Assembly: GCA_026413225.1 (NCBI GenBank)
Contig: CM048553.1
Span: 116,442,690 to 116,506,689, forward strand
DNA: 64,000 nucleotides
Direction of reading: 5' to 3'
Source of the DNA: Otis tarda
Taxonomy: Eukaryota > Chordata > Aves > Otidiformes > Otididae
Shown: positions 1 through 62,191 of the stretch, one piece after another
Numbering within the stretch: position 1 is the first letter of the stretch
How the letters are laid out: each line of letters begins with the position of its first letter
Notes under the pieces: model-generated
The model's input: the letters and a program-made list of their open reading frames with translations, nothing else
What the model was told of the DNA's origin: nothing
Database searches by the model: none
Program-made: the position numbers and the translations under genes

Positions 1-2247
1 TCATTTCATTCAACATTGTAAGTGATTTATTTAGTAATTGAAATTATGCTGTTAGTTATAGGCTGCATAAAATCGTCCTTAGACTCTGACCCTCCCAGTT
101 TTATCGTCCCCCTTTTTTGATCTCCAGACATGTTTCTGACCATCAGACAACCAAAAACATAGCTTTAAAGAAATGCTGAGACTTTCAGAGAGCTGACATT
201 TTAAGGAAAATACTAAATATCAGGAAATATGACAAAAATCATGAGAGTTGACAATGCTGCCATCTAGCCTTTTAATGGTAATCAACAGGAGTTATCTGAT
301 ACAATGCAATGAGTCTCTGGATGTCTTCATTAGCTCCATAATTATCAGAGATCTAAGAGGACTCCTTTCTGTGAAGTTATGGCAGCTTGACCATAGACAA
401 TGAGTCCTCTGACATCATTCTCAAGAGCAAGACTGTATATGCTCTTAGCTAGTAGTATCATATACTCAGATGTTTAGACGCTACATACATGGATGGGACA
501 TTGCTGTGAAACTCCTCGTTATAAAAATTAAAAAGTCAGCAAACTTCTGTGTGCTGTCCTTTATGCATGGATCATAATCTCTGCAATACATCATATACCC
601 TCACAGTTGGCTTCCTCTGTTTGTAAGTTGTGTTGCTGTTATGAAAAGCTAAAATTAAAAGGCTTTAAAGATAAAGAAAACATTTTTTCTATGTCTAGTT
701 ATATTCGTCTCATTAGTATTTCTTTGGTTTAAGTGACAAGTTTGGGATCTTTTGTATTACCTAAGAAGATCAAAAAGCAATCATCTTTTAATGTATATAG
801 ATATTGTTGGTTGTAGATTTTGTTTTAAATGATGTGTTTTTAGATGCGTTTTGTGTGCACATGCAAATCTTTGTATGAGATATACCATTCTGATATGTAC
901 TAATACGTGTAGACTGTTGTTGCTTATGTTTGAAATGCTAATTTGTTTTTTCTGTTCTTGTTTTAAAACTAGCGCTTGTCATTGTTTTGTTCTAACCTGT
1001 TTGACAATAATTGATTTTGTGTTCACTTGTTAATTGGTTTAGTTGTTACTTTATTGAAATTCATGGATTTTCTGATGTCCTGAGGAGGGTGTGTTTTCAC
1101 TGGTAGTCACTAATTGCACAGTGTTAAGCATTCATAAGCTTCCAACTTCTTCATAAAGCAATCAGCACATTTTATTAACTTCCTGAATCTCTGCTCTGCT
1201 CCTTGAATCATAGCATTTCTGATCCTGCTCTTAGCCGAACACAGGTGCCATATTTGTATAATAAGGAACTCTTTGAAATGAATGCATATTTTACTTTTAG
1301 AAAAGTAATTTCTTGGAGACAAATTGCTGTAATTATTATTATTTATTTCTACAGCAGAAGCATTGGGAGTATCAAAATCAGAGATACATTGTGTTATGTG
1401 TAGAATAAGAGAATAAAAGACACTCAAAACACCAAACAGTAAGGGTTAGATGGTTTCCAGCCATATTAGTCCCACGAGGATCTTCAAAAGAAAGCAAGCA
1501 GTAGTGCCATGCACACCAGCATAGCTTTTCAAAAGCAATACATACCTTCTGCTTAGGAACTCCCCTTCCTGGATGCTTCTTTCTAGTGCAAGCAGAAGAA
1601 ACAAAGAAAGAGAAAGATCAAATTGAGATGCTGGATGTCTCACCTGGTGACCACCAAATGTGGGCAGAAATGGTTAACAACATCTGGGGAGACACACTAA
1701 GTGTCAGCCCGTTAGGAAAGTGGGTGACAGATTCTATTAACCTGAAGATTCGATTGCCCAGTCTGGCAGGCCAGACCTTGCTGTAGGTCTCACAGTCTGA
1801 CAAATGGGAGTGAAATGAAACCTGGCCTGATACTGAGGCCTCACAACCTTTGAAGTTTCAGATTCCTCAGCCTTGGTTTCCCCTCTCTTCAATTCCCCTC
1901 TAGTTTTTGTCCTTACATCCTTGACCTTTTCCTCACAAAACCACTGTAGCTGTGTTTTATCCTTTTGTAATGCACTTAACAAGAGAAAATTTAGGTTATA
2001 TTATCTTAATAACGTTGCCTGTAGCATTCCCAAATCCTTGCCTTCCACTGGTGGATTTTTATATTGTTCCCCATTGCTCTCTTTGTCCAAATAAAATCAG
2101 TGAGCTACATGGCTTTATACTCCCGGCTTCTCTCTCCAGCTTTCTTGGTGATAAATTCACAAATAACTACCATATACTTAAGTTATTACCCACCTAGAAT
2201 TATCACAGCTATATACACACAGTAGTATAAATTGATTTATGTTGTGC
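1..2247. other. AT-rich DNA without recognisable gene
   Basis: This stretch holds only short chance reading frames. Most of it is AT-rich single-copy sequence. About 1590-2200 is less AT-rich and contains several short open frames and an AATAAA near 2089. It could be a decayed repeat, but I cannot match it to a family. Confidence 0.5.
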
Positions 2248-2435
2248 ATCTGTGTCGTAGTTCAGCCCTGATCAGGACCAGACTACGCAGTCTCTCTCTC
2301 ACTCCCCCCACCCTCCGAAAGAACAGGGAGAGAAAATATAAGGAAAAACGGCTCGAGGTTTGAGATAAGGACAGGGAGAAATCCTCAAAGTTACCGTCAC
2401 GGGCAAAACAGACTCGACTTGGGAAAAACTATTCA

Positions 2436-2441
2436 TTTATT
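2436..2441 (-). terminator. Poly(A) signal AATAAA in the LTR
   Basis: The sense strand reads GTAGTAATAAATG. It lies downstream of the TATA box and upstream of the U5-like end. The same signal is present in the other copies, for example near 26214 in the solo LTR at 25247-26401. Confidence 0.65.
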
Positions 2442-3221
2442 ACTACAAACAGCAGGATAATGAGACAGAGAACAAGATAACCTCCATCCACCCCTCCCTC
2501 TTCCCAAGCTTAACTTTATCTCTACTACCTTCCCCCCCCCCCCCCGAGCGGCACAGGGGGGAAGAGGGAATGGGGGTTGCAGTCAGTCCATCATACGTTG
2601 TTTCATGCCGCTGCTTCATGGTCGGGGGAAGAACTCCTCACATTCCTCCCCTGCTCCATCGTGGGGTCCCTCCCACGGGCCACAGTCCTTCGTGGAACTG
2701 CTCCGGCGTGGGTCATCTCTTCCACGGAGTACAGTCTCTCCAGAACGGCTGTCTCAGCGGGCCCTCCACGGGCCACAGCCGCCTTCAGGCATCCACCTCC
2801 CCCGGTGTGGGGTCCTTCACGGGCTCCAAGTGGATCTCTGCTCCTCCGTGGACCTCCATGGGCTGCAGGGGGACAACCTGCTCCACCATGGTCGTCACCA
2901 CAGGCTGCAGGGGAATCTTGGCCAGGAGCCGCATTACTCCTCCCCCTCCTTCTGAACTGACCTTGGCGTCTGCAGCCGTTCCTCACAACAGGGTGGTAGA
3001 TGTCTCTCAGGATCTTTTTACATCTTATTCACTTCTTCTCATCTCCTCTCCACTTCTTGCAGCCGGGCCGGGCCGAGTCGGGCCCAGTCGGCCGCCTGGC
3101 AAGAGGCCAGAGGGTGAGGCCTGCAAGGCCCAGGAGGCCTGCGCCTCCCCCTCTGCACCTCCGCCCCAGCTCAGCTTCTTCACATCTTCTCTTCTCTCTT
3201 TTTTTTTCTGTTTTCCCCTTC

Positions 3222-3228
3222 TTAAATA
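3222..3228 (-). promoter_or_regulatory. TATA-like box of the 3' LTR
   Basis: The sense strand reads ACGTATTTAAGAAGGGG. The same motif is kept in the other LTR (4678-4684) and in solo copies of the family, so it is the likely core promoter. Confidence 0.6.
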
Positions 3229-3401
3229 CGTTATCGCAGAGGCGTTATCACGGGACATTCTGCTACCAATCGGCTCGACCTTGGCCAGCAGCAGGTCCGC
3301 CCTAGGCCTGGCCAAGTCCACTGAACAAAGGGGAGCGACTTCTAGCAGTTTCCTGCAGAAGCTACCACCTTAGGCCCCCCCTCACTAACAAAACCATGAC
3401 A

Positions 3402-3416
3402 TTCCACCCCTCGCCT
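3402..3416 (-). promoter_or_regulatory. Polypurine tract, non-autonomous element
   Basis: The sense strand reads GGCGAGGGGTGGAA directly before the 3' LTR start TGTCATGG. This is the expected position of the plus-strand primer. The core AGGGGTGGA is shared with the provirus tract at 11714-11731. Confidence 0.75.
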
Positions 3417-3685
3417 CTGCGAATTACGTATTTAAGAATTCTAATTAAAATACACACACATCAACAGAAAAGAAAAAGAATTCCCCGCACCAAAAATCAA
3501 AATAATATCCTCAAAACACCAACTGTGGATATACTAGGCAATTTACACACAATTCACCACTTATCCCTTCACCACAATCACAACATAAATTTTCCCCTAA
3601 TCATTTTGCTCTTTTGTCAAGTTCAATCCCTGTTTTGCCCATTACCGCTCCCAATTAAACTCAATCCTTATCTCAAATTCCTCGA

Positions 3686-3703
3686 GCCCCATGTTGGGCG
3701 CCA
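3686..3703 (-). promoter_or_regulatory. Primer-binding site, tRNA-Lys type
   Basis: The sense strand reads TGGCGCCCAACATGGGGC, seven bases inside the 5' LTR edge. It matches the known tRNA-Lys1,2 primer-binding sequence (ending ACGTGGGGC) except at one base. Confidence 0.85.
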
Positions 3704-3710
3704 AAATAAC

Positions 3711-4857
3711 TGTCGTAGTTCAGCCCTGATCAGGACCAGACTACGCAGTCTCTCTCTCACTCCCCCCACCCTCCGAAAGAACAGGGAGAGAAAATATAAG
3801 GAAAAACGGCTCGAGGTTTGAGATAAGGACAGGGAGAAATCCTCAAAGTTACCGTCACGGGCAAAACAGACTCGACTTGGGAAAAACTATTCATTTATTA
3901 CTACAAACAGCAGGATAATGAGACAGAGAACAAGATAACCTCCATCCACCCCTCCCTCTTCCCAAGCTTAACTTTATCTCTACTACCTTCCCCCCCCCCC
4001 CGAGCGGCACAGGGGGGAAGAGGGAATGGGGGTTGCAGTCAGTCCATCATACGTTGTTTCATGCCGCTGCTTCATGGTCGGGGGAAGAACTCCTCACATT
4101 CCTCCCCTGCTCCATCGTGGGGTCCCTCCCACGGGCCACAGTCCTTCGTGGAACTGCTCCGGCGTGGGTCATCTCTTCCACGGAGTACAGTCTCTCCAGA
4201 ACGGCTGTCCCAGCGGGCCCTCCACGGGCCACAGCCGCCTTCAGGCATCCACCTCCCCCGGTGTGGGGTCCTTCACGGGCTCCAAGTGGATCTCTGCTCC
4301 TCCGTGGACCTCCATGGGCTGCAGGGGGACAACCTGCTCCACCATGGTCGTCACCACAGGCTGCAGGGGAATCTTGGCCAGGAGCCGCATTACTCCTCCC
4401 CCTCCTTCTGAACTGACCTTGGCGTCTGCAGCCGTTCCTCACAACAGGGTGGTAGATGTCTCTCAGGATCTTTTTACATCTTATTCACTTCTTCTCATCT
4501 CCTCTCCACTTCTTGCAGCCGGGCCGGGCCGAGTCGGGCCCAGTCGGCCGCCTGGCAAGAGGCCAGAGGGTGAGGCCTGCAAGGCCCAGGAGGCCTGCGC
4601 CTCCCCCTCTGCACCTCCGCCCCAGCTCAGCTTCTTCACATCTTCTCTTCTCTCTTTTTTTTTCTGTTTTCCCCTTCTTAAATACGTTATCGCAGAGGCG
4701 TTATCACGGGACATTCTGCTACCAATCGGCTCGACCTTGGCCAGCAGCAGGTCCGCCCTAGGCCTGGCCAAGTCCACTGAACAAAGGGGAGCGACTTCTA
4801 GCAGTTTCCTGCAGAAGCTACCACCTTAGGCCCCCCCTCACTAACAAAACCATGACA
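3711..4857 (-). repeat. 5' LTR of the non-autonomous element
   Basis: This 1147-bp LTR is nearly identical to 2253-3401 and includes a TATA-like box at 4678-4684. It would drive transcription leftwards, away from the provirus that starts at 5401 on the other strand. Confidence 0.9.
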
Positions 4858-4862
4858 ATCTG

Positions 4863-5395
4863 AAAGATTACAGCCCAGGAGACCTGTCTTGGGCTCTCAC
4901 TTTAGCACAACCAGTCTTTCCCTTGGACGGTTAGCTGCAGTCTGTGTGTCACTCTACCTCGGGTCTGGAGGGATCTGTCTTCCTCTGCAAAGCTGGGGGA
5001 CAGGAGGTGAAATGGGCTGCCTGGAGCTCAGACCTATCCATACTCACACTACAGGTTCAGCTGTATGTGGCATGGCAGCCACGAGCTACCAAGGCCTGGC
5101 TGACAAAAGTAGGGTAAAATTCTGTTGCTGTCTGAATCTAGATAATTCAGACTCATATTATGTATGTTTTTTCTTATCCATGGGTGTTTGTAGATGTGTC
5201 TCATATACCTGTCCAGAAAGACACCTGAGCAGGAAGACACACAAACAACTATATTAAAAACCAACTATACAGAATAACTCAGATTCACTTAATACATTTA
5301 TTGCTTATGAAACTTAGCTCTGCGGATAATTTCCCAGCAAGAAGTGATTGGTTGGTTTTTTGTTTGTTTGTTCAGTTATTGCTGTGATTTTTTTT
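4863..5395. other. Spacer between two LTR elements
   Basis: About 530 bp of host sequence separates the two divergent elements. It ends in T/G-rich runs next to the provirus target site. The open frame at 4889-5257 resembles nothing I know. Confidence 0.5.
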
Positions 5396-5658
5396 TTGTG
5401 TGTCCTGGTTTCAGCAGGGATGGAGTTAATTTTCTTTTTAGTAGCCGGTGTGTTTTGGATTTCGTGTGTGAAGAATGTTGATAAAAACATTCTGATGATA
5501 CGAGTTGTTGTTAATGAGACCAAGGACACTGTCTGGCTTTCCAAGTCTCGTTAAGGTCTTGTTAACGTGCAGATGCGGGAAGCTGGGCGAAAGACAGACA
5601 GAATAATTGATCCAAACTGGCCAAAGAGAGTATTCCATGCCATAAACGTCATGCTCAG

Positions 5659-5665
5659 TATATAA
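5659..5665 (+). promoter_or_regulatory. TATA box of the ERVL LTR
   Basis: The sequence CTCAGTATATAAGTGGG is typical of an LTR core promoter. It is kept in the solo LTR at 61725-62191 but is missing from the one at 52856-53475. Confidence 0.8.
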
Positions 5666-5974
5666 GTGGGGGTTGCCCATGGGAGGGGGCATCCTAATCC
5701 TTTTCTGGTATTCCTTTCTTGTCGGGTATCCATTCGGGCACCCTTGGCACCCTTTTCTTCTCGCTTGCTTGCTGGCATCGTTCCCTCTACCTTGCTAGCT
5801 TGCTCTCCCCCCTTTTGCTTGCTGCTCGGTGTCGTTCCTGTGATTGCTGCTCGGGACGGGCTGCGTCGGTCATTCGGACATCGGGTGGTGAGAAATTGTA
5901 CATTGTTCATTTTGTATATTTTGTATATATTAATATCCTTATATCCTGTTAGCTTTGTAGTTTTTAGTATTTTT

Positions 5975-5980
5975 AGTAAA
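5975..5980 (+). terminator. Probable non-canonical poly(A) signal AGTAAA
   Basis: There is no AATAAA in the second half of this LTR. AGTAAA sits about 310 bp after the TATA box. The related LTR at 17483 has ATTAAA at the same place. Confidence 0.45.
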
Positions 5981-6102
5981 CTGTTTTTATCTCAACCCAC
6001 GAGTTTTCCTTTCTTCCCAATTTCTCTCCCCTGTCCCACTGGGTAGGGGGAGGGTGAATAAGAAACTGTGTGGTGATCCGGGCTAAACCACCACAGTCTT
6101 TT

Positions 6103-6120
6103 TGGTGCCCAACGTGGGGC
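6103..6120 (+). promoter_or_regulatory. Primer-binding site, tRNA-Lys type
   Basis: TGGTGCCCAACGTGGGGC lies seven bases after the LTR. It equals the known tRNA-Lys1,2 primer-binding sequence except for T in place of C at the fourth base. Confidence 0.9.
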
Positions 6121-6130
6121 TCGAAAGGGC

Positions 6131-6199
6131 CTCACTAGATCAGTCGTGAGATCATCAGACCTTAGTCTGAGGATCCAAGGTTCAAGCCCCGGTCAGTCC
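6131..6199 (+). other. tRNA-Lys-like element in the retroviral leader
   Basis: Ten bases after the primer-binding site the plus strand reads like a tRNA in sense orientation. The D arm is TAGATCAGTCGTGAGATC with stem GATC/GATC (6138-6141, 6150-6153). The anticodon arm is TCAGA-CCTTAG-TCTGA (6155-6170), with a 6-base loop instead of 7. The T arm has the B-box GGTTCAAGCCC (6179-6189). From memory the closest tRNA is vertebrate tRNA-Lys(UUU), whose anticodon stem TCAGA/TCTGA is the same. The acceptor stem does not pair (6131-6135 side against 6193-6199), so this is a mimic or relic and not a functional tRNA gene. Confidence 0.65.
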
Positions 6200-6294
6200 T
6201 GAAGGGTTGAGATAAGGACAGGTTTGAACACAGTGTGTTGAAAACAGATTTGTTACAAGTGTTCATTAAGCTGGTTTGGTCATCGCTGGGCACA

Positions 6295-8124
6295 ATGTTG
6301 TTTTATTTGTTCTCACAGTTGTTTTTAGAGCTGTATTGGGCAGCGCCCTACCTGCCGTATTTTCTGTTTGTCGGTGTTTATGCACGGTTTTTCAATGCGG
6401 TGTGTTGGATTAAGATTATGGTTGTGCTGTGCTATGTGGCACTGATTTGTTTAGTGAGATTGCTGGTGATGGGACCATTTTCATATCTGTACTCAATGGC
6501 GGCGGGCAGTGTGCAGGGAGAGGAGGCAGAGGCACCTCCACCCGGGTATTTCGGGAGCCATCTTGTGGGTGTTGTTTGGAACTATACCTGTTGTTTTGTT
6601 CCGGGAAGCCAGGCCGCAGGGGGAACATCTGTTTACAGCTATCCCCACCTCGCCAAGCTAATTGCAACAGCTTTTGAGAATTTTGAATACCCTTTTGATA
6701 CCCCTAGCACCATGTTCATGGTGACAAGTCTCTTGCAGCTATCTCAGATCTTGATATTGATTAAGTTTAAACAATTTTTTAAAAGTATTATGGCTCCTCC
6801 AATCCCCGCAACAGACACTGTGGCTACTCAAACTGCTGCTACAAATACTGCAACTACTTCAGCCGCTACAGCAGGCACTGCAGCTACCGCAGCCCCGGCT
6901 ACGGGCACTGCGATTGCTTCAGCCCCCACGCCAGACGCTGTGGCTACTCAAACCTCGCCCAGCAGTACCAAAGAGAAACCAAAAAAGCAATCTACACCAG
7001 TATCAGTTGCCCCTGTACAGAAGAAATACACCAAAAAATCAGGTCACATAGTGAAAGATGATGATGAACCAGGCCCATCGCATGATCAGGGAGAGGCAGA
7101 AGGAGAGGTAGTCACCCGGTCCCTATCCCTGAGTGAGCTGCGAGATATGCGAAAAGATTTCAGCCGTAATCAAGGTGAGCAACTTGTCACCTGGTTGCTC
7201 CGATGCTGGGACAGAGGGGCCAGTAGCCTGGAATTAGAAGGCAGGGAAGCCAGGCAGCTGGGATCCCTGTCTAGGGAAGCAGCCATTGACAGGGCGATCA
7301 GAAGAGAGTCAGCAGCCTGCAGCCTCTGGAGGCGACTCCTGTCAGGTGTGAGGGACAGGTATTTCTTTAAGGAAGATATTGTATGCCACCCAAGCAAGTG
7401 GACCACCATGGAGAGAGGTATCCAGTTTCTGAGAGAATTAGCTGTTCGGGAGCTGATTTATCATAACCTGGATGACCCACGGACATCCGTAGATCCAGAT
7501 GAAATGGAATGCACCCGACCCATGTGGCGGAAATTTGTACAGAGTGCACCATCATCGTATGCCAACTCATTGGCAGCAATGAGTTGGAAAGATGATGAGA
7601 TGCCACCAGTACGTGCAGTGGCTAACCAGCTCCGACAATATGAAGACAATCTCTCTTCCCCGATGCGGGCCTGTGTCTCAGCTATAGAAAGACTGACTGA
7701 GAAATCTGAAAGCCAGTTTGAAAAACTGTTAGAAAAACTATCTGAGGTGTGTCAGAAACTGGAAGATTCTTGCTCCCCACCTGCACAGACCAATATCTCA
7801 GCTATTAGAAGAAGACCTCATCCTCCTCCTGCTCAAGGGAGACGGTACTCCCGACGAGATGACCTATGGTTTACCTTGCGTGACCAAGGAGAGGATATGA
7901 GGAAGTGGGATGGAGAGCCTACCTCGGCCCTAGAGGCACGTGTACGTGAGTTGCGAGGTAAAACAATCATAAAGGGAGGTTCTTCCAGGCAATTTGCTGC
8001 TCCAGTCTCCAGTGGGCAGTTCCCCAGACAGCGTAGAAGGGCTGATTTCACCTCTGATCCTATGGAAGGAACTTCTGATTCATATTCACAGAAAGTGAAT
8101 AGAAAATATTATAAACAGGACTAG
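6295..8124 (+). CDS. gag: ERVL Gag polyprotein with N-terminal membrane region
   Basis: The frame is open from 6211, and the first ATG is 6295 with A at -3, giving 609 residues. Residues 2-30 and 41-65 are strongly hydrophobic, and 141-162 is another likely membrane segment. A NYT glycosylation sequon lies at 96-98. Then follow an Ala/Thr/Pro-rich linker (about 167-222), a charged stretch, and the Gag core from about 275 (SLSLSELRDMRKDF). A likely coiled coil occupies 461-492. The basic tail has RRR (505-507), GRRYSRRDD (515-523) and RQRRR (578-582) and no CCHC zinc knuckle, as in spuma-like Gags. ATGs at 6496 and 6790 (MAPPIPATD) are other possible starts. The second would leave out the membrane part, though the frame before it is fully open. 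The stop is UAG, in frame with pol. Confidence 0.85.
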   Translation: MLFYLFSQLFLELYWAAPYLPYFLFVGVYARFFNAVCWIKIMVVLCYVALICLVRLLVMGPFSYLYSMAAGSVQGEEAEAPPPGYFGSHLVGVVWNYTCCFVPGSQAAGGTSVYSYPHLAKLIATAFENFEYPFDTPSTMFMVTSLLQLSQILILIKFKQFFKSIMAPPIPATDTVATQTAATNTATTSAATAGTAATAAPATGTAIASAPTPDAVATQTSPSSTKEKPKKQSTPVSVAPVQKKYTKKSGHIVKDDDEPGPSHDQGEAEGEVVTRSLSLSELRDMRKDFSRNQGEQLVTWLLRCWDRGASSLELEGREARQLGSLSREAAIDRAIRRESAACSLWRRLLSGVRDRYFFKEDIVCHPSKWTTMERGIQFLRELAVRELIYHNLDDPRTSVDPDEMECTRPMWRKFVQSAPSSYANSLAAMSWKDDEMPPVRAVANQLRQYEDNLSSPMRACVSAIERLTEKSESQFEKLLEKLSEVCQKLEDSCSPPAQTNISAIRRRPHPPPAQGRRYSRRDDLWFTLRDQGEDMRKWDGEPTSALEARVRELRGKTIIKGGSSRQFAAPVSSGQFPRQRRRADFTSDPMEGTSDSYSQKVNRKYYKQD

Positions 8125-8199: not shown

Positions 8200-11100
8200 A
8201 CATCAGACCCACAGAAGTATAAAGCTCTAGTAGACACTGGTGCACAGTGTACCCTAATACCATCAAGCTATAAAGGGGCACAACCCATTTGTATTTCTGG
8301 AGTGACAGGAGGATCCCAAGAGCTGACTGTATTGGAGGCTGAACTAAGTTTGACTGGGAATGAGTGGCAAAAGCACCCCATAGTGACTGGCCCAGATGCT
8401 CCGTGCATTCTTGGTATAGATTACCTCAGGAGTGGGTATTTCAAAGACCCAAAAGGGCACCGGTGGGCTTTTGGTATAGCCACCGTGGAGGCAGAGAAAA
8501 ATAAACAGCTGTCCATCTTGCCCAGACTTTCAAAGGACCCTTCCGTTGTGGGAAAGCTGAAAGTTAAAGAACAAAAGGTACCAATTGCTACCACCACGGT
8601 GCACCGGCGGCAATATCGCACCAACCGAGACTCCATAATCCCCATCCTCAAGCTGATTCGTCGACTGGAGAGCCAGGGAGTGATCAGTAAGTCCCGCTCA
8701 CCCTTTAACAGTCCCATATGGCCAGTGAGAAAATCTAATGGAGAATGGAGATTAACAGTGGACTATCGTGGCCTAAATGAGGTTACACCACCAATGAGTG
8801 CTGCCGTGCCAGACATGCTAGAACTTCAGTATGAACTGGAGTCAAAAGCAGCCAAGTGGTATGCCACCATCGATATTGCCAATGCGTTCTTCTCCATTCC
8901 TTTGGCACCAGAATGCAGGCCACAGTTTGCTTTCACTTGGAGGGGTGTCCAGTATACCTGGAATCGACTGCCCCAGGGGTGGAAACACAGCCCCACCATT
9001 TGCCATGGACTGATCCAGACTGTACTAGAAAAGGGTGGAGCTCCAGAACATCTGCAGTACATTGATGACATCATCGTATGGGGCAACACAGCAGAAGAAG
9101 TTTTTGAGAAAGGGGAGAAAATAATCCAAATCCTTCTGAAAGCCGGTTTTGCAATAAAACAAAGCAAAGTCAAAGGGCCTGCACAAGAGATCCAGTTTTT
9201 AGGAGTAAAATGGCAAGATGGACGTCGTCACATTCCAATGGATGTGGTCAACAAAATAACAGCTATGGCTCCACCAACTAACAAAAAGGAAACACAAGCC
9301 TTCTTAGGTGTTGTGGGTTTCTGGAGGATGCATATTCCAAATTACAGTATGATTGTAAGCCCTCTCTATGAAGTGACTCGAAAGAAGAATGATTTTAAAT
9401 GGGGCCCTGAACAGCGACAAGCCTTTGAACAAATTAAACAGGAGATTGTTCATGCAGTAGCCCTTGGGCCAGTCCGGACAGGACAAGATGTGAAAAACAT
9501 CCTCTATACCGCAGCCGGGGAGAATGGCCCTACCTGGAGTCTCTGGCAGAGAACACCAGGAGAGACTCGAGGTCGACCCCTAGGCTTTTGGAGCCGGGGA
9601 TATAGAGGATCTGAGGCCCGTTATACTCCAACTGAAAAAGAGATACTGGCAGCATACGAAGGAGTTCGAGCTGCTTCAGAAGTGATTGGTACTGAAGCAC
9701 AGCTCCTCCTGGCACCCCGACTGCCAGTGCTGGGCTGGATGTTCAAAGGGAAGGTCCCCTTTACACATCATGCAACTGATGCCACGTGGAGTAAATGGGT
9801 TGCACTGATCACACAGCGAGCCCGAATAGGAAACCCCAATCGCCCAGGAATCTTGGAAGTAATCACAGATTGGCCAGAAGGCAAAGATTTTGGAATGCCG
9901 CCAGAGGAAGAAGTGACACGTGCTGAAGAAGCCCCACCATACAACAACCTCCCAGAAAATGAGAAGCAGTATGCCCTATTTACTGATGGATCCTGTCGCA
10001 TTGTAGGAAAACATCGAAAGTGGAAAGCTGCTGTGTGGAGTCCTACACGACGAGTGGCAGAAGCCGCTGAAGGCCAAGGTGAATCAAGTCAGTTTGCGGA
10101 GGTGAAAGCCATCCAGCTGGCTTTAGACATTGCTGAACGGGAAAAATGGCCAAAGCTCTATCTCTACACTGACTCATGGATGGTGGCAAACGCTCTGTGG
10201 GGGTGGTTAAAGCAATGGAAGCAGAGCAACTGGCAGCGCAGAGGCAAACCCATCTGGGCTGCCGCACTGTGGCAAGATATTGCTGCCCAGTTAGAGAAGC
10301 TTGTTGTAAAAGTACGTCATGTAGATGCCCACGTACCCAAGAGTCGAGCCACTGAAGAACATCAAAACAACAAGCAAGCGGATCAGGCTGCTAAGACTAA
10401 AGTTTCCCAAGTGGACTTAGACTGGCAACACAGAGGCGAACTATTTTTAGCTCGGTGGGCCCATGACACCTCAGGCCATCAAGGAAGAGATGCAACATAC
10501 AAATGGGCTCGTGATCGAGGGGTGGATTTAACTATGGACACTATTGCACAGGTTATCCACGACTGTGAGACATGCGCTGCAATTAAGCAAGCCAAGCGGC
10601 TAAAGCCTCTTTGGTATGGAGGACGATGGCTGAAATACAAATATGGAGAGGCCTGGCAGATTGATTACATCACACTCCCACAAACTCGCCAAGGCAAGCG
10701 CTATGTGCTTACAATGGTGGAAGCAACCACTGGGTGGCTAGAGACATATTCTGTACCCCATGCCACCGCCCGAAACACCATCCTGGGCCTTGAGAAGCAA
10801 GTTCTCTGGCGACATGGCACTCCAGACAGAATAGAGTCAGACAACGGGACTCATTTCCGAAACAACCTCATAGACACCTGGGCCAAAGAGCATGGCATTG
10901 AGTGGGTATATCACATCCCCTATCACGCACCAGCCTCTGGAAAGATTGAACGGTACAATGGACTGCTGAAAACTACACTGAAAGCAATGGGTGGTGGAAC
11001 CTTCAAAAACTGGGACAAACATTTAGCAAAAGCCACTTGGTTAGTCAACACTCGGGGATCCATCAATCGAGCTGGCCCTGCCCAATCTGAACTTTTACAT

Positions 11101-11310
11101 ACTGTAGATGGTGATAAAGTTCCTGTGGTGCATGTAAGGAATATGTTGGGGAAAACAGTCTGGGTTATTCCTCCTCTGGGCAAGGGCAAACCCATCCGTG
11201 GGATTGCTTTCGCTCAAGGACCTGGATGTACTTGGTGGGTGATGCGGGAGGATGGGGAAGTCCGATGTGTACCTCAAGGAGATTTGATTCTAGGTGAAAA
11301 TAGCCAATGA
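8125..11310 (+). CDS. pol: ERVL Pol: protease, reverse transcriptase, RNase H, integrase
   Basis: The frame of 1061 codons follows the gag UAG directly and in phase, with no internal stop. It has no ATG of its own near the start, so it is most likely made as Gag-Pol by readthrough. The protease has DTGA (8233-8244) and a later ILGID. Reverse transcriptase has LPQGW (8968-8982) and YIDD (9058-9069). RNase H has TDGSC (Asp at 9985), Glu at 10099, TDS (Asp at 10171) and HVDAH (Asp at 10324). Integrase has H-x4-H (10462, 10477) and C-x2-C (10564, 10573), then Asp 10663, Asp 10840 and Glu 10948, with exactly 35 residues between the last two. All catalytic positions are present. Integrase is the last domain, and no dUTPase follows. 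Confidence 0.93.
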   Translation, partial: RGPASSQAEERDNRVYWTVWIKWPGTSDPQKYKALVDTGAQCTLIPSSYKGAQPICISGVTGGSQELTVLEAELSLTGNEWQKHPIVTGPDAPCILGIDYLRSGYFKDPKGHRWAFGIATVEAEKNKQLSILPRLSKDPSVVGKLKVKEQKVPIATTTVHRRQYRTNRDSIIPILKLIRRLESQGVISKSRSPFNSPIWPVRKSNGEWRLTVDYRGLNEVTPPMSAAVPDMLELQYELESKAAKWYATIDIANAFFSIPLAPECRPQFAFTWRGVQYTWNRLPQGWKHSPTICHGLIQTVLEKGGAPEHLQYIDDIIVWGNTAEEVFEKGEKIIQILLKAGFAIKQSKVKGPAQEIQFLGVKWQDGRRHIPMDVVNKITAMAPPTNKKETQAFLGVVGFWRMHIPNYSMIVSPLYEVTRKKNDFKWGPEQRQAFEQIKQEIVHAVALGPVRTGQDVKNILYTAAGENGPTWSLWQRTPGETRGRPLGFWSRGYRGSEARYTPTEKEILAAYEGVRAASEVIGTEAQLLLAPRLPVLGWMFKGKVPFTHHATDATWSKWVALITQRARIGNPNRPGILEVITDWPEGKDFGMPPEEEVTRAEEAPPYNNLPENEKQYALFTDGSCRIVGKHRKWKAAVWSPTRRVAEAAEGQGESSQFAEVKAIQLALDIAEREKWPKLYLYTDSWMVANALWGWLKQWKQSNWQRRGKPIWAAALWQDIAAQLEKLVVKVRHVDAHVPKSRATEEHQNNKQADQAAKTKVSQVDLDWQHRGELFLARWAHDTSGHQGRDATYKWARDRGVDLTMDTIAQVIHDCETCAAIKQAKRLKPLWYGGRWLKYKYGEAWQIDYITLPQTRQGKRYVLTMVEATTGWLETYSVPHATARNTILGLEKQVLWRHGTPDRIESDNGTHFRNNLIDTWAKEHGIEWVYHIPYHAPASGKIERYNGLLKTTLKAMGGGTFKNWDKHLAKATWLVNTRGSINRAGPAQSELLHTVDGDKVPVVHVRNMLGKTVWVIPPLGKGKPIRGIAFAQGPGCTWWVMREDGEVRCVPQGDLILGENSQ

Positions 11311-11731: not shown

Positions 11732-12428
11732 TGTCCTGGTTTCAGCAGGGATGGAGTTAATTTTCTTCTTAGTAGCCGGTGTGTTTTGGATTTCGTGTGT
11801 GAAGAATGTTGATAAAAACATTCTGATGATACGAGTTGTTGTTAATGAGACCAAGGACACTGTCTGGCTTTCCAAGTCTCGTTAAGGTCTCGTTAACGTG
11901 CAGATGCGGGAAGCTGGGCGAAAGACAGACAGAATAATTGATCCAAACTGGCCAAAGAGAGTATTCCATGCCATAAACGTCATGCTCAGTATATAAGTGG
12001 GGGTTGCCCATGGGAGGGGGCATCCTAATCCTTTTCTGGTATTCCTTTCTTGTCGGGTATCCATTCGGGCACCCTTGGCACCCTTTTCTTCTCACTTGCT
12101 TGCTGGCATCGTTCCCTCTACCTTGCTAGCTTGCTCTCCCCCCCCTTTTGCTTGCTGCTCGGTGTCGTTCCTGTGATTGCTGCTCGGGACGGGCTGCGTC
12201 GGTCATTCGGACATCGGGTGGTGAGAAATTGTACATTGTTCATTTTGTATATTTTGTATATATTAATATCCTTATATCCTGTTAGCTTTGTAGTTTTTAG
12301 TATTTTTAGTAAACTGTTTTTATCTCAACCCACGAGTTCTCCTTTCTTCCCAATTTCTCTCCCCTGTCCCACTGGGTAGGGGGAGGGTGAATAAGAAACT
12401 GTGTGGTGATCCGGGCTAAACCACCACA
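11732..12428 (+). repeat. 3' LTR of the ERVL provirus
   Basis: This 697-bp copy matches 5401-6095 except for four substitutions and a run of eight C instead of six in the CTCCCCCC tract. The TATA box and the AGTAAA signal are intact. Confidence 0.95.
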
Positions 12429-17482: not shown

Positions 17483-17819
17483 TGTGCTAGTTTTGACTGG
17501 GATAGAATTAATTCTCTTCATAGTATCTCGTATGAGGCCATATTTTGGATTTATGGCGTTTTGTCTTCCTGAGTAGCTGTTACGCAAGATGGAGTCCTGC
17601 ATTCCTGGAGATGCTGCCTGCCAATGGGAAGTAGTGAATTAATTCCTTGTTTTACTTAGCTTGCATGTGTGGCTTTTGCTTTACTTATTAAACTGTCTTT
17701 ATCTCAACCAATGAGTTTTCTCACTTTTACTCTTCCAACTCTCTCCGCTGTCTCACCAGGGGGGAAGTAAGCAAGCGGCTGTGTGGTGCTTAGTTGCCAG
17801 CTGGGGTTAAATCACAACA
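17483..17819 (+). mobile_element. Old, shortened solo LTR related to the ERVL LTR
   Basis: It starts TGTGCTAGTTTTGACTGGG and ends AATCACAACA. It keeps blocks of the provirus LTR: a GAATTAATT start, TTTTGGATTT, and TTTATCTCAACCAATGAG in U5, with ATTAAA near 17689. Most of U3 and the TATA box are gone. The flanks GCAAT (17478-17482) and GGAAT (17820-17824) are a 5-bp target duplication with one mismatch. Confidence 0.8.
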
Positions 17820-52624: not shown

Positions 52625-53605
52625 TGTGGGGTAATGTTAGCAAACAGGTGGGTGTGGCAAGGCAGAACTTACAGCCTAGCAACAAGGCTACGAGTGGGGC
52701 TGGGCTGCACGTGCACAGGAAGTGCTTCGACTGGGGCTGCACGTGCACAGGAAGAACGGACTGCAACGATTCGCGGGCTTGCTGACGCACTGCCTCATGG
52801 TAGGCGCGGATAGGTACATGGGCGCAGGGGGTAGGTGCATAGCGGGTGTCGGGTATGTGATGGTTTAGCCCGAATCACCACACAGTTTCTCGCTCACCCT
52901 CCCCCTCCCCAGGGGGGTGGGGGAGAGAATTGGGAAGGAAGGAGAACTCGTGGGTTGAGATAAAGATAATTTACTAAAATAAAAAGGGAAAACTACAATA
53001 ATAACAGAATATAAGGATATTAAAAATATACAAAGTGAACAATATGTGTTTTCTCACCACCCAATGTCCCAATGACCAATACAGCCCGTCCCGAGCAGCG
53101 ATCACGGAAACAAAACCGAGCAGCAAGCAAAGGAGCAAAAGGGAGCCAGCAAGGTAGAGGGAACGATGCCAGCAAAACGAGCAGGAAAGATGGATGCCAG
53201 GAAGGCAGATACCCACCCTTGCCTGCCCCCATGAGCATGACGTTTATGGCATGGAGTACTCTCTTTGGCCAGTTTGGGTCAATTATCCTGTCTGTCTTTT
53301 TCCCAGCTTCCTGCATCTGCAAATTAGTGAGACTTGGAAAGCAGGACGGTGTCCTTGGTCTCATTCACAACAACTGGTATCATCAGGGTGTTTGTCAACA
53401 TTCTTCACACACGAAATCCAAAACATACCAGCTACTGAGAGGAAAGTTAACTCCATCCCTGCCAAAACCAGGACAGGGTATTTAACCCTGTGTTGCGCAG
53501 CATTAAATTGAAGGCTTGGCTTGACGGTATCCATGTGATGCCCTGCTTTCCCCGTAGCGGGTCTTTGGTGCGTGCGGGGTAGGTTAGCTGGCAAGAGAGC
53601 CGGCA
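52625..53605 (+). mobile_element. Solo LTR of the third family, split by a nested LTR
   Basis: The left part (52625-52855) starts TGTGGGGTAATGTTAGC. The right part (53476-53605) starts GGGTATTTAACCCTG and ends GAGAGCCGGCA, matching the 43005 copy. Without the insert it is about 356 bp. Possible flanks are GTTATC (52619-52624) and GTCATC (53606-53611), with one mismatch. The U3 has two copies of CTGCACGTGCACAGGAAG instead of the three 39-bp units. Confidence 0.75.
52856..53475 (-). mobile_element. Solo LTR of the ERVL provirus type, nested, TATA lost
   Basis: This 620-bp LTR reads on the minus strand. Its plus-strand ends, TGTGATGGTTTAGCCCG and AAAACCAGGACA, are the complement of the provirus LTR ends. 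The perfect duplication is GGGTA (52851-52855, 53476-53480). It keeps the U5 phrase TTTATCTCAACCCACGAG. The provirus segment with GTATATAAG is missing after CGTCATGCTCA, so it probably lacks a promoter. Confidence 0.93.
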
Positions 53606-61719: not shown

Positions 61720-61724
61720 TTTGG

Positions 61725-62191
61725 TGTCCTGGTTCTAGCTAGGATGGAGTTAATTTTCACCTGAGCTGGAAGAGGAGCTGGAGCTGGTGGCACCTGTGGC
61801 TGGGGGATACAGCTGGGGTAGCTTACTAATTAGTCAACAGCTAGGATAATTTACCAAAGGGCTGTTCCATCCCATGTGACATCATGCTTAGTATATAAAG
61901 TGGGGACTGTGGTGAGGGCAGATTCCTGCTACTGAGGAGGAAGATAGGTATTAGGATTCACTGTGAGCTATTGTACTGTGAATTATGTGCTTAAGTATTT
62001 TCTGTTATTGGGATGTTTTATTTTGTTTTCCATCTCTATTTTTCTTTTCCTATGTTGTTCTCTTAAACTGTTTTTATCTCAACCCATGAGTTTTGCTTTC
62101 TTTGCTTTACTGCTTTTCTTTCTTATCCCACTGAGGGGACAGTGAGAGACTGTGTGGTATTTTCACTGCTGAGTGGAGTTCAATAATAACA
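61725..62191 (+). mobile_element. Solo LTR related to the ERVL provirus LTR
   Basis: This 467-bp LTR starts TGTCCTGGTTCTAGC and ends AGTTCAATAATAACA. The perfect duplication is TTTGG (61720-61724, 62192-62196). It keeps the TATA box (GTATATAAAG, 61891-61900) and the U5 phrase TTTATCTCAACCCATGAG. U3 differs and is shorter than in the provirus. Confidence 0.92.

Follow-up and report, generated by a model that had tools for sequence, protein, structure and literature searches.

A sense-oriented element derived from tRNA-Lys beside the primer-binding site of endogenous retroviruses in Otis tarda

The stretch of Otis tarda DNA analyzed here, 64,000 nucleotides in length and hereafter referred to as the window, holds a young endogenous retrovirus (ERV) of a multi-copy family, designated family A, whose leader carries a tRNA-like element in sense orientation immediately beyond the primer-binding site (PBS). 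Comparisons with a covariance model, with tRNA genes, and with 13 further leaders of the same genome support derivation of this element from tRNA-Lys, nearer to the UUU than to the CUU isoacceptor, and the insert is old, lying at the same position in divergent relatives. Paired changes in the stems exceed chance across the 14 leaders, a hint of use by the virus, maybe for primer recruitment. The account put forward here, tentatively and short of conviction, is that an avian ERV lineage captured a whole host tRNA-Lys(UUU) in its leader in ancient times, and that the sequence was retained there for some period as a folded element acting in cis.

Descent of the element from tRNA-Lys

Several lines of evidence link the element of the window to tRNA-Lys. 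Firstly, the Rfam tRNA model (RF00005) aligns with it end to end on the forward strand (model positions 1-71; 21.4 bits), and a D stem (GATC/GATC), an anticodon stem (TCAGA/TCTGA) and a T-loop region (GGTTCAAGCCC) are all found, bearing out the description of D, anticodon and T arms in tRNA order given in the first-pass annotation; the spacing of ten bases after the PBS given there is corrected to eight bases beyond the 18-nt PBS. Secondly, within a panel of 20 vertebrate tRNAs, the best match is tRNA-Lys(UUU), with identity in 55 of 74 columns and a score of 66, as compared to 30 for the best of 500 letter shuffles. Thirdly, alignment with tRNA genes of the same genome yields 57 of 74 columns for a Lys-TTT gene (L080) and 50 of 74 for the Lys-CTT gene (L086), so that tRNA-Lys(UUU) stands as the nearest relative, as had been suggested in the first-pass annotation. 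Relative to the tRNA-Lys(UUU) of the panel, 9 of 42 stem positions differ, and the anticodon loop consists of 6 nt, CCTTAG.

Folding of single sequences adds little to this picture. The region 6128-6201 folded alone gives no cloverleaf (z -1.11); such a test is weak, because in single folds of five elements and of a tRNA-Lys gene of the host, not even the gene gave a cloverleaf as its best fold. The window copy does contain two double compensatory changes relative to tRNA-Lys (P about 0.04).

The PBS beside the element was assigned by comparison with the Lys-CTT gene of the genome (L086), the terminal CCA being assumed, and by pattern match. One base of it, T6106, is particular to the window copy, in which the PBS reads TGGT; the remaining 27 family A members in the comparison read TGGC there. 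The proximity of a tRNA-derived unit to a PBS raises the question of whether the unit is an antisense copy of the primer, produced when reverse transcriptase reads on through the primer tRNA. This explanation, already dismissed in the first-pass annotation, is refuted by the sense orientation of the element and retains a negligible probability; the greater nearness to tRNA-Lys(UUU) than to the primer isoacceptor likewise speaks against it. An event of the kind did apparently take place in this genome: at L091 (about 1493-1573, minus strand), the end of a family C long terminal repeat (LTR) adjoins the complement of nearly the whole of tRNA-Lys(CUU), followed by LTR-like sequence, a pattern that reads as apparent read-through of the primer.

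Insert-bearing leaders elsewhere in the genome

Use of tRNA-Lys(UUU) as a query against the genome located 12 places, consisting of three Lys-TTT genes (L080, L081, L083), the Lys-CTT gene (L086), seven further ERV leaders that hold the insert in sense orientation (L082, L084, L085, L087, L088, L089, L090), and L091. When the leader of L082 served as the query, 40 of 118 candidates were scored and 30 loci read, revealing three tRNA genes, six loci already known, 15 members of family A, and six further insert-bearing leaders (L099, L102, L103, L113, L114, L115). Thus 13 loci besides the window hold the insert, each time preceded by a PBS or what is left of one and followed by one and the same leader motif. 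Comparison with related proviruses, as proposed in the first-pass annotation, thereby brought out both presence of the insert at these 13 loci and its absence from a further family, designated B. The seven insert loci of the first search are clearly homologous to the window, though divergent, being 66-79% identical over matched stretches of more than 100 bases, which lie in LTR and gag in five cases and, in L085 and L088, in gag alone, no LTR match having been seen. As a separate observation on the tRNA genes, two loci (G000:C12:7470325 and 7926139) share one and the same tRNA-Lys(TTT) gene sequence, agree in the upstream flank as far as it was displayed, have a tRNA-His gene near each, and perhaps represent a duplicated tRNA block.

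Preservation of the insert varies widely. In a scan of nine loci with the Rfam tRNA model, L082 (67.8 bits) and L088 (35.0 bits) attained the cut-off of 29; L084 (28.5), L085 (27.6), L090 (27.0) and L087 (25.5) fell below it, and L089 and the family A copies L062 and L063 did not appear among the matches at E 0.5. L082 retains all 21 cloverleaf pairs, and ARAGORN identifies it as tRNA-Lys(ttt). A 7-nt anticodon loop is found in L082, L084, L085, L087, L089 and L090, its sequence being CTTTTAA in L082, L084 and L087, and CTCTTAA in L090.

The tRNA-gene character of L082 lends some color to the idea that the cloverleaf is cut by RNase P and RNase Z, or that its A and B boxes form an RNA polymerase III promoter. 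Both are very unlikely: cleavage would leave the PBS and gag on separate pieces of the genomic RNA, and the A-box region reads TAGATCAG rather than TAGCTCAG in eight of the 14 leaders. Even less probable is that a tRNA-derived short interspersed element (SINE) or tRNA pseudogene inserted into the leader, an option that the first-pass annotation had left standing. The unit is flanked by short direct repeats (GAAGGG), which would suit an insertion, but it has the length of a tRNA, without body or tail, and the places read in both searches (all 12, and 30 of 40) are tRNA genes, insert-bearing ERV leaders, or L091, which is antisense to its LTR; no SINE-like dispersed copy was among them.

Paired changes in the stems

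Support for a folded element comes from comparison of the window with the 13 other leaders. Stem changes were counted as events relative to a tRNA-Lys yardstick set to C7-G66, and the events were then moved at random, the leaders that share an event being kept together. Six double compensatory events were found among 40 distinct stem changes, where the null mean is 1.65 (P=0.001): 10-25 A-U, 11-24 A-U, 11-24 U-A (a separate event), 49-65 U-A, 50-64 G-C and 51-63 A-U. Pair 11-24 is accordingly C-G, A-U or U-A, depending on the leader. The check for paired substitutions suggested in the first-pass annotation therefore came out in favor of the stems.

A second test, conducted on a separate alignment of the leaders with 500 shuffles, points in the same direction. 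The covariation score is 0.137, as compared to 0.078 in the shuffles, and 85.7% of cells are paired, as compared to 82.4%, with 0 of 500 shuffles as high in either measure; five pairs have changed on both sides (2.5 shuffled; 15/500) and 13 further pair types occur (11.0 shuffled; 31/500). These shuffle figures are not strict probabilities, as the shuffles ignore relatedness among the leaders. By stem, paired cells amount to 92.9% in the D, 94.3% in the anticodon, 81.2% in the T and 78.6% in the acceptor stem. A further change, from A-U to C-G at 7-66, sets most inserts apart from the Lys-TTT genes found, and could stem from an unseen source tRNA instead of compensatory change. Taken together, the alignments of the 14 leaders describe a cloverleaf with covarying stems, albeit one that de novo folding does not recover.

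Proposed capture, spread and loss

The leader of the window is multi-copy: all 40 scored of 286 candidates match it at 98-100% identity, and the exact PBS (TGGCGCCCAACRTGGGGCTCGA) occurs 463 times in the genome. Of the 48 exact-PBS sites that come first along contig C1, a sample excluding the window copy with its variant PBS, five belong to family A, with the insert, 10 to family B, and 33 to family C, a more distant leader (GGAATTTGAGATAAGG). In family B the PBS continues directly into AAGGGTTGAGG, and alignment with an insert-bearing leader opens a gap of 78 nt; family B thus represents an empty site. At one place in the genome (G000:C2:102700929-102726232), five leader matches lie on one strand at a spacing of about 6.3 kb, as would fit a tandem array of proviruses.

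Trees of the LTR and of the 5' part of gag both place the insert-less family B among insert-bearing leaders, in positions that differ between the two. Its nearest relative is family A in the LTR tree (86/89); the gag tree joins it, by a long branch, to the group of L082, L084, L085 and L089 (91/95). Both trees are midpoint-rooted and carry long-branch warnings; five of the 10 family B and five family A members are included, the LTR tree omits L085 and L088, for want of an LTR match, and the gag tree omits family C. The simplest reading is one gain followed by loss in family B. As GAAGGG flanks the tRNA unit on both sides in copies such as L062, the loss perhaps came about through deletion between these repeats. 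The insert-less family B, together with changes in the loop and acceptor of family A, shows that the element can weaken or go.

As for the gain, a lineage priming with tRNA-Lys(CUU) would have taken in tRNA-Lys(UUU) sequence in a single capture. Reverse transcriptase, slowed at the annealed primer tRNA, may have switched to a tRNA-Lys(UUU) packaged alongside, continued as far as the 5' end of that tRNA and then returned to its former template, with GAAGGG left on either side. The unit is tRNA-sized, begins at tRNA position 1 and adjoins the PBS, features with which a template jump to tRNA-Lys(UUU) would fit.

Possible function and competing explanations

The element is located between the PBS and a predicted stem joining U5 to the leader (18 pairs, 5981-5998 with 6204-6221), within the loop that this stem closes. 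The stem is predicted in families A and C, and the folds concerned are far stabler than shuffles (z -4.85 for 5960-6250; z -4.80 for the family C leader). Among 13 leaders examined for such a duplex, in runs made without a shuffled control, eight use the ATCTC motif of U5 for the predicted pairing; L085, L087, L099, L103 and L115 yield other or weaker duplexes. The folded element would act beside the PBS, inside this loop, and might, as the least certain part of this account, engage lysyl-tRNA synthetase (LysRS) or Gag, thereby aiding delivery of tRNA-Lys to the PBS; its use would have weakened or ceased in family A. By analogy with HIV-1, the element may plausibly have served primer delivery, a role suggested by its position, descent and covariation and the one favored here. 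A more demanding proposal, which appears rather unlikely, is that of an independently evolved full-length tRNA-Lys mimic, kept folded by selection through deep divergence and recruiting LysRS and tRNA-Lys, with later families shortening the anticodon loop and eroding (A) or deleting (B) the element.

A number of observations weigh against capture followed by use. In the window copy, the tRNA model alignment, end to end though it is, stays under the gathering cut-off of 29 bits (E 0.091, for 801 bases and 4227 families); the window scan gave no Rfam match at gathering cut-off, and ARAGORN called no tRNA. Standard pairs number 17 of 21, two acceptor and two T-stem pairs failing, and an argument for stem conservation from this copy alone was abandoned, random placement of the changes giving P=0.09-0.26. 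Across the 14 leaders, eight (L088, L099, L102, L103, L113, L114, L115 and family A) combine a 6-nt anticodon loop with the GATC/GATC D stem; the T stem is eroded in several, and in family A the acceptor stem as well. Pairs kept number 253 of 294, which is marginal relative to the 241.8 expected (P=0.049), de novo consensus folding with RNAalifold did not recover the cloverleaf, and mean pairwise identity is nearly the same in the element (0.80) as in the next 40 leader bases (0.78; PBS region 0.68). Many of the insert loci consist of one old copy that has since decayed, and family B, though devoid of the element, multiplied and outnumbers family A by 10 to five in the sample described above. 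Lastly, searching by tRNA-Lys or by an insert-bearing leader favors tRNA-like inserts, and losses elsewhere would escape a count of loci recruited in this way; for the same reason, the presence of the insert in 14 leaders is not taken as a sign that it was needed.

Much of this would be expected if the captured tRNA was simply copied along without function, its tRNA look being inherited and its paired changes reflecting luck or mutational bias. The multiplication of family B, the erosion of T and acceptor stems, the near-equal identity of element and following leader, the failed consensus fold and the bias of the search all favor such a passenger, which must be regarded as a serious possibility, if a doubtful one. 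Opposed to it are the six double compensatory events and a covariation score above that of every shuffle; similarity searching does not favor paired changes per se. Within family A, the element displays no special conservation (variable sites at 5 of 74 nt, versus 11 of 144 nt outside element and PBS, among 27 other copies picked by high score).

A different function, and an improbable one, is that of a cover for the PBS: T arm and acceptor would base-pair with it in cis and shield it against 3' tRNA fragments or premature priming, to be displaced in the end by the primer. Predicted PBS-element duplexes range from -9.6 to -22.1 kcal/mol in 13 leaders (L088 excluded), the window fold pairs the 3' half of the PBS with the 5' strand of the acceptor, and ERVs are inhibited by PBS-targeting 3' tRNA fragments (PMC7472051). 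Set against these points, the duplex program always yields a best duplex and was run without a shuffled or unrelated control, pairing is expected anyway as PBS and element both descend from tRNA-Lys T arms, and the covariation of the D stem is left unexplained. The preferred reading remains that of ancient capture and temporary use as a folded element.

The host provirus and its surroundings

The features of the family A provirus are collected in Table 1. Its two LTRs are 99.1% identical over 697 aligned columns. The frame at the gag position begins, provisionally, at the first listed start, GTG, and has no Pfam match at E 0.001. The downstream frame was scanned for domains in two pieces; the named entries among 120 listed of the 1305 relatives of the reverse transcriptase piece are bird proteins. 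An LTR pair, a PBS, reverse transcriptase, RNase H and integrase domains, and bird relatives together identify an avian ERV.

Table 1. Features of the family A provirus and its leader (window coordinates)
Feature	Position	Strand	Basis or remark
5' LTR of young provirus (family A)	5401..6095	+	paired with 11732-12428; TG...CA ends read
U5 arm CTGTTTTTATCTCAACCC of predicted U5-leader stem	5981..5998	+	predicted duplex
PBS, 18 nt (6103-6120) plus TCGAA	6103..6125	+	complements tRNA-Lys(CUU) 3' end, one mismatch
Segment in family A, absent from family B, 78 nt	6126..6203 (equally 6123-6200)	+	alignment of window with L031
tRNA-Lys(UUU)-derived tRNA-like element	6129..6199	+ (sense)	Rfam tRNA model, tRNA alignments, 13 other loci
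GAAGGG, right-hand direct repeat	6201-6206	+	left-hand GAAGGG intact in copies such as L062
Leader arm GGGTTGAGATAAGGACAG of predicted U5-leader stem	6204..6221	+	predicted duplex
Open frame, gag position	6235..8124	+	start provisional
Open frame (domains: reverse transcriptase, RNase H, integrase)	8302..11310	+	domain scan in two pieces
3' LTR of family A provirus	11732..12428	+	LTR pairing

The window also holds older relatives or fragments of the family A LTR (52856-53475 on the minus strand, 17685-17788 and 61724-62102), the longest at 76.8% identity, and a second LTR element, of family C (about 2253-4900, minus strand), with near-identical repeats 1456-1458 bases apart, a tRNA-Lys(CUU)-type PBS (3686-3703) and, judged by eye, about 0.3 kb between its LTRs. 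Among viral contigs no relative was found by the reverse transcriptase piece (five pattern stretches, none confirmed), leader pattern or LTR motif; one PBS match (L001), on an unrelated contig without a tRNA, is probably due to chance. A plasmid search gave no match.

Comparison with known systems

HIV-1 packages tRNA-Lys1, Lys2 and Lys3 via LysRS, which is also bound by a tRNA-like element (TLE) next to its PBS, an imitation of the anticodon arm (PMC8473020, PMC11181671). The HIV-1 TLE and the avian element share mimicry of tRNA-Lys in genomic RNA adjoining a tRNA-Lys PBS (6103-6125 and 6129-6199 in the window), with LysRS as the proposed partner. As to the anticodon arm, its stem is the best paired of the four in the avian leaders; the loop reads CTTTTAA in the three leaders named above but CCTTAG in the window. 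The two differ in that HIV-1 presents an anticodon-arm mimic with a U-rich loop, whereas the bird ERV carries a whole tRNA-descended unit just 3' of the PBS; unlike the HIV-1 case, its primer is of Lys1,2 (CUU) type and its element of Lys3 (UUU) type.

Other systems resemble the avian element in part. Primer-tRNA read-through also leaves tRNA-derived sequence at a PBS, but in antisense, as seen in L091 and not in the window element. Plant RNA viruses bear tRNA-like structures at the 3' end that are not known to be plain host tRNA copies; a tRNA-like fold in a viral genome is common to both, while location and origin differ. Avian retroviruses form a U5-leader stem around the PBS, and the U5-complementary leader arm of families A and C is alike, with the difference that the avian loop described here encloses the tRNA-like insert as well. 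Among the matches listed from titles and abstract openings of open PubMed Central papers, none described an ERV leader with a tRNA-derived element in sense orientation. The zebra finch has an ERVL family, TguERVL2 (PMC6523648); for the provirus of the window, ERVL is a provisional label given in the first-pass annotation.

While tRNA-Lys mimicry beside a PBS is already known from HIV-1 (PMC8473020, PMC11181671), the proposed history would, if true, add a second, unrelated lineage, in which the mimic was gained by taking in an actual tRNA, a direct evolutionary route. A single bird genome holds the element in well-preserved (L082), derived, eroded (family A) and empty (family B) states, and these graded states make it testable whether retroviruses in general recruit their primers by RNA mimicry, and when they can do without it.
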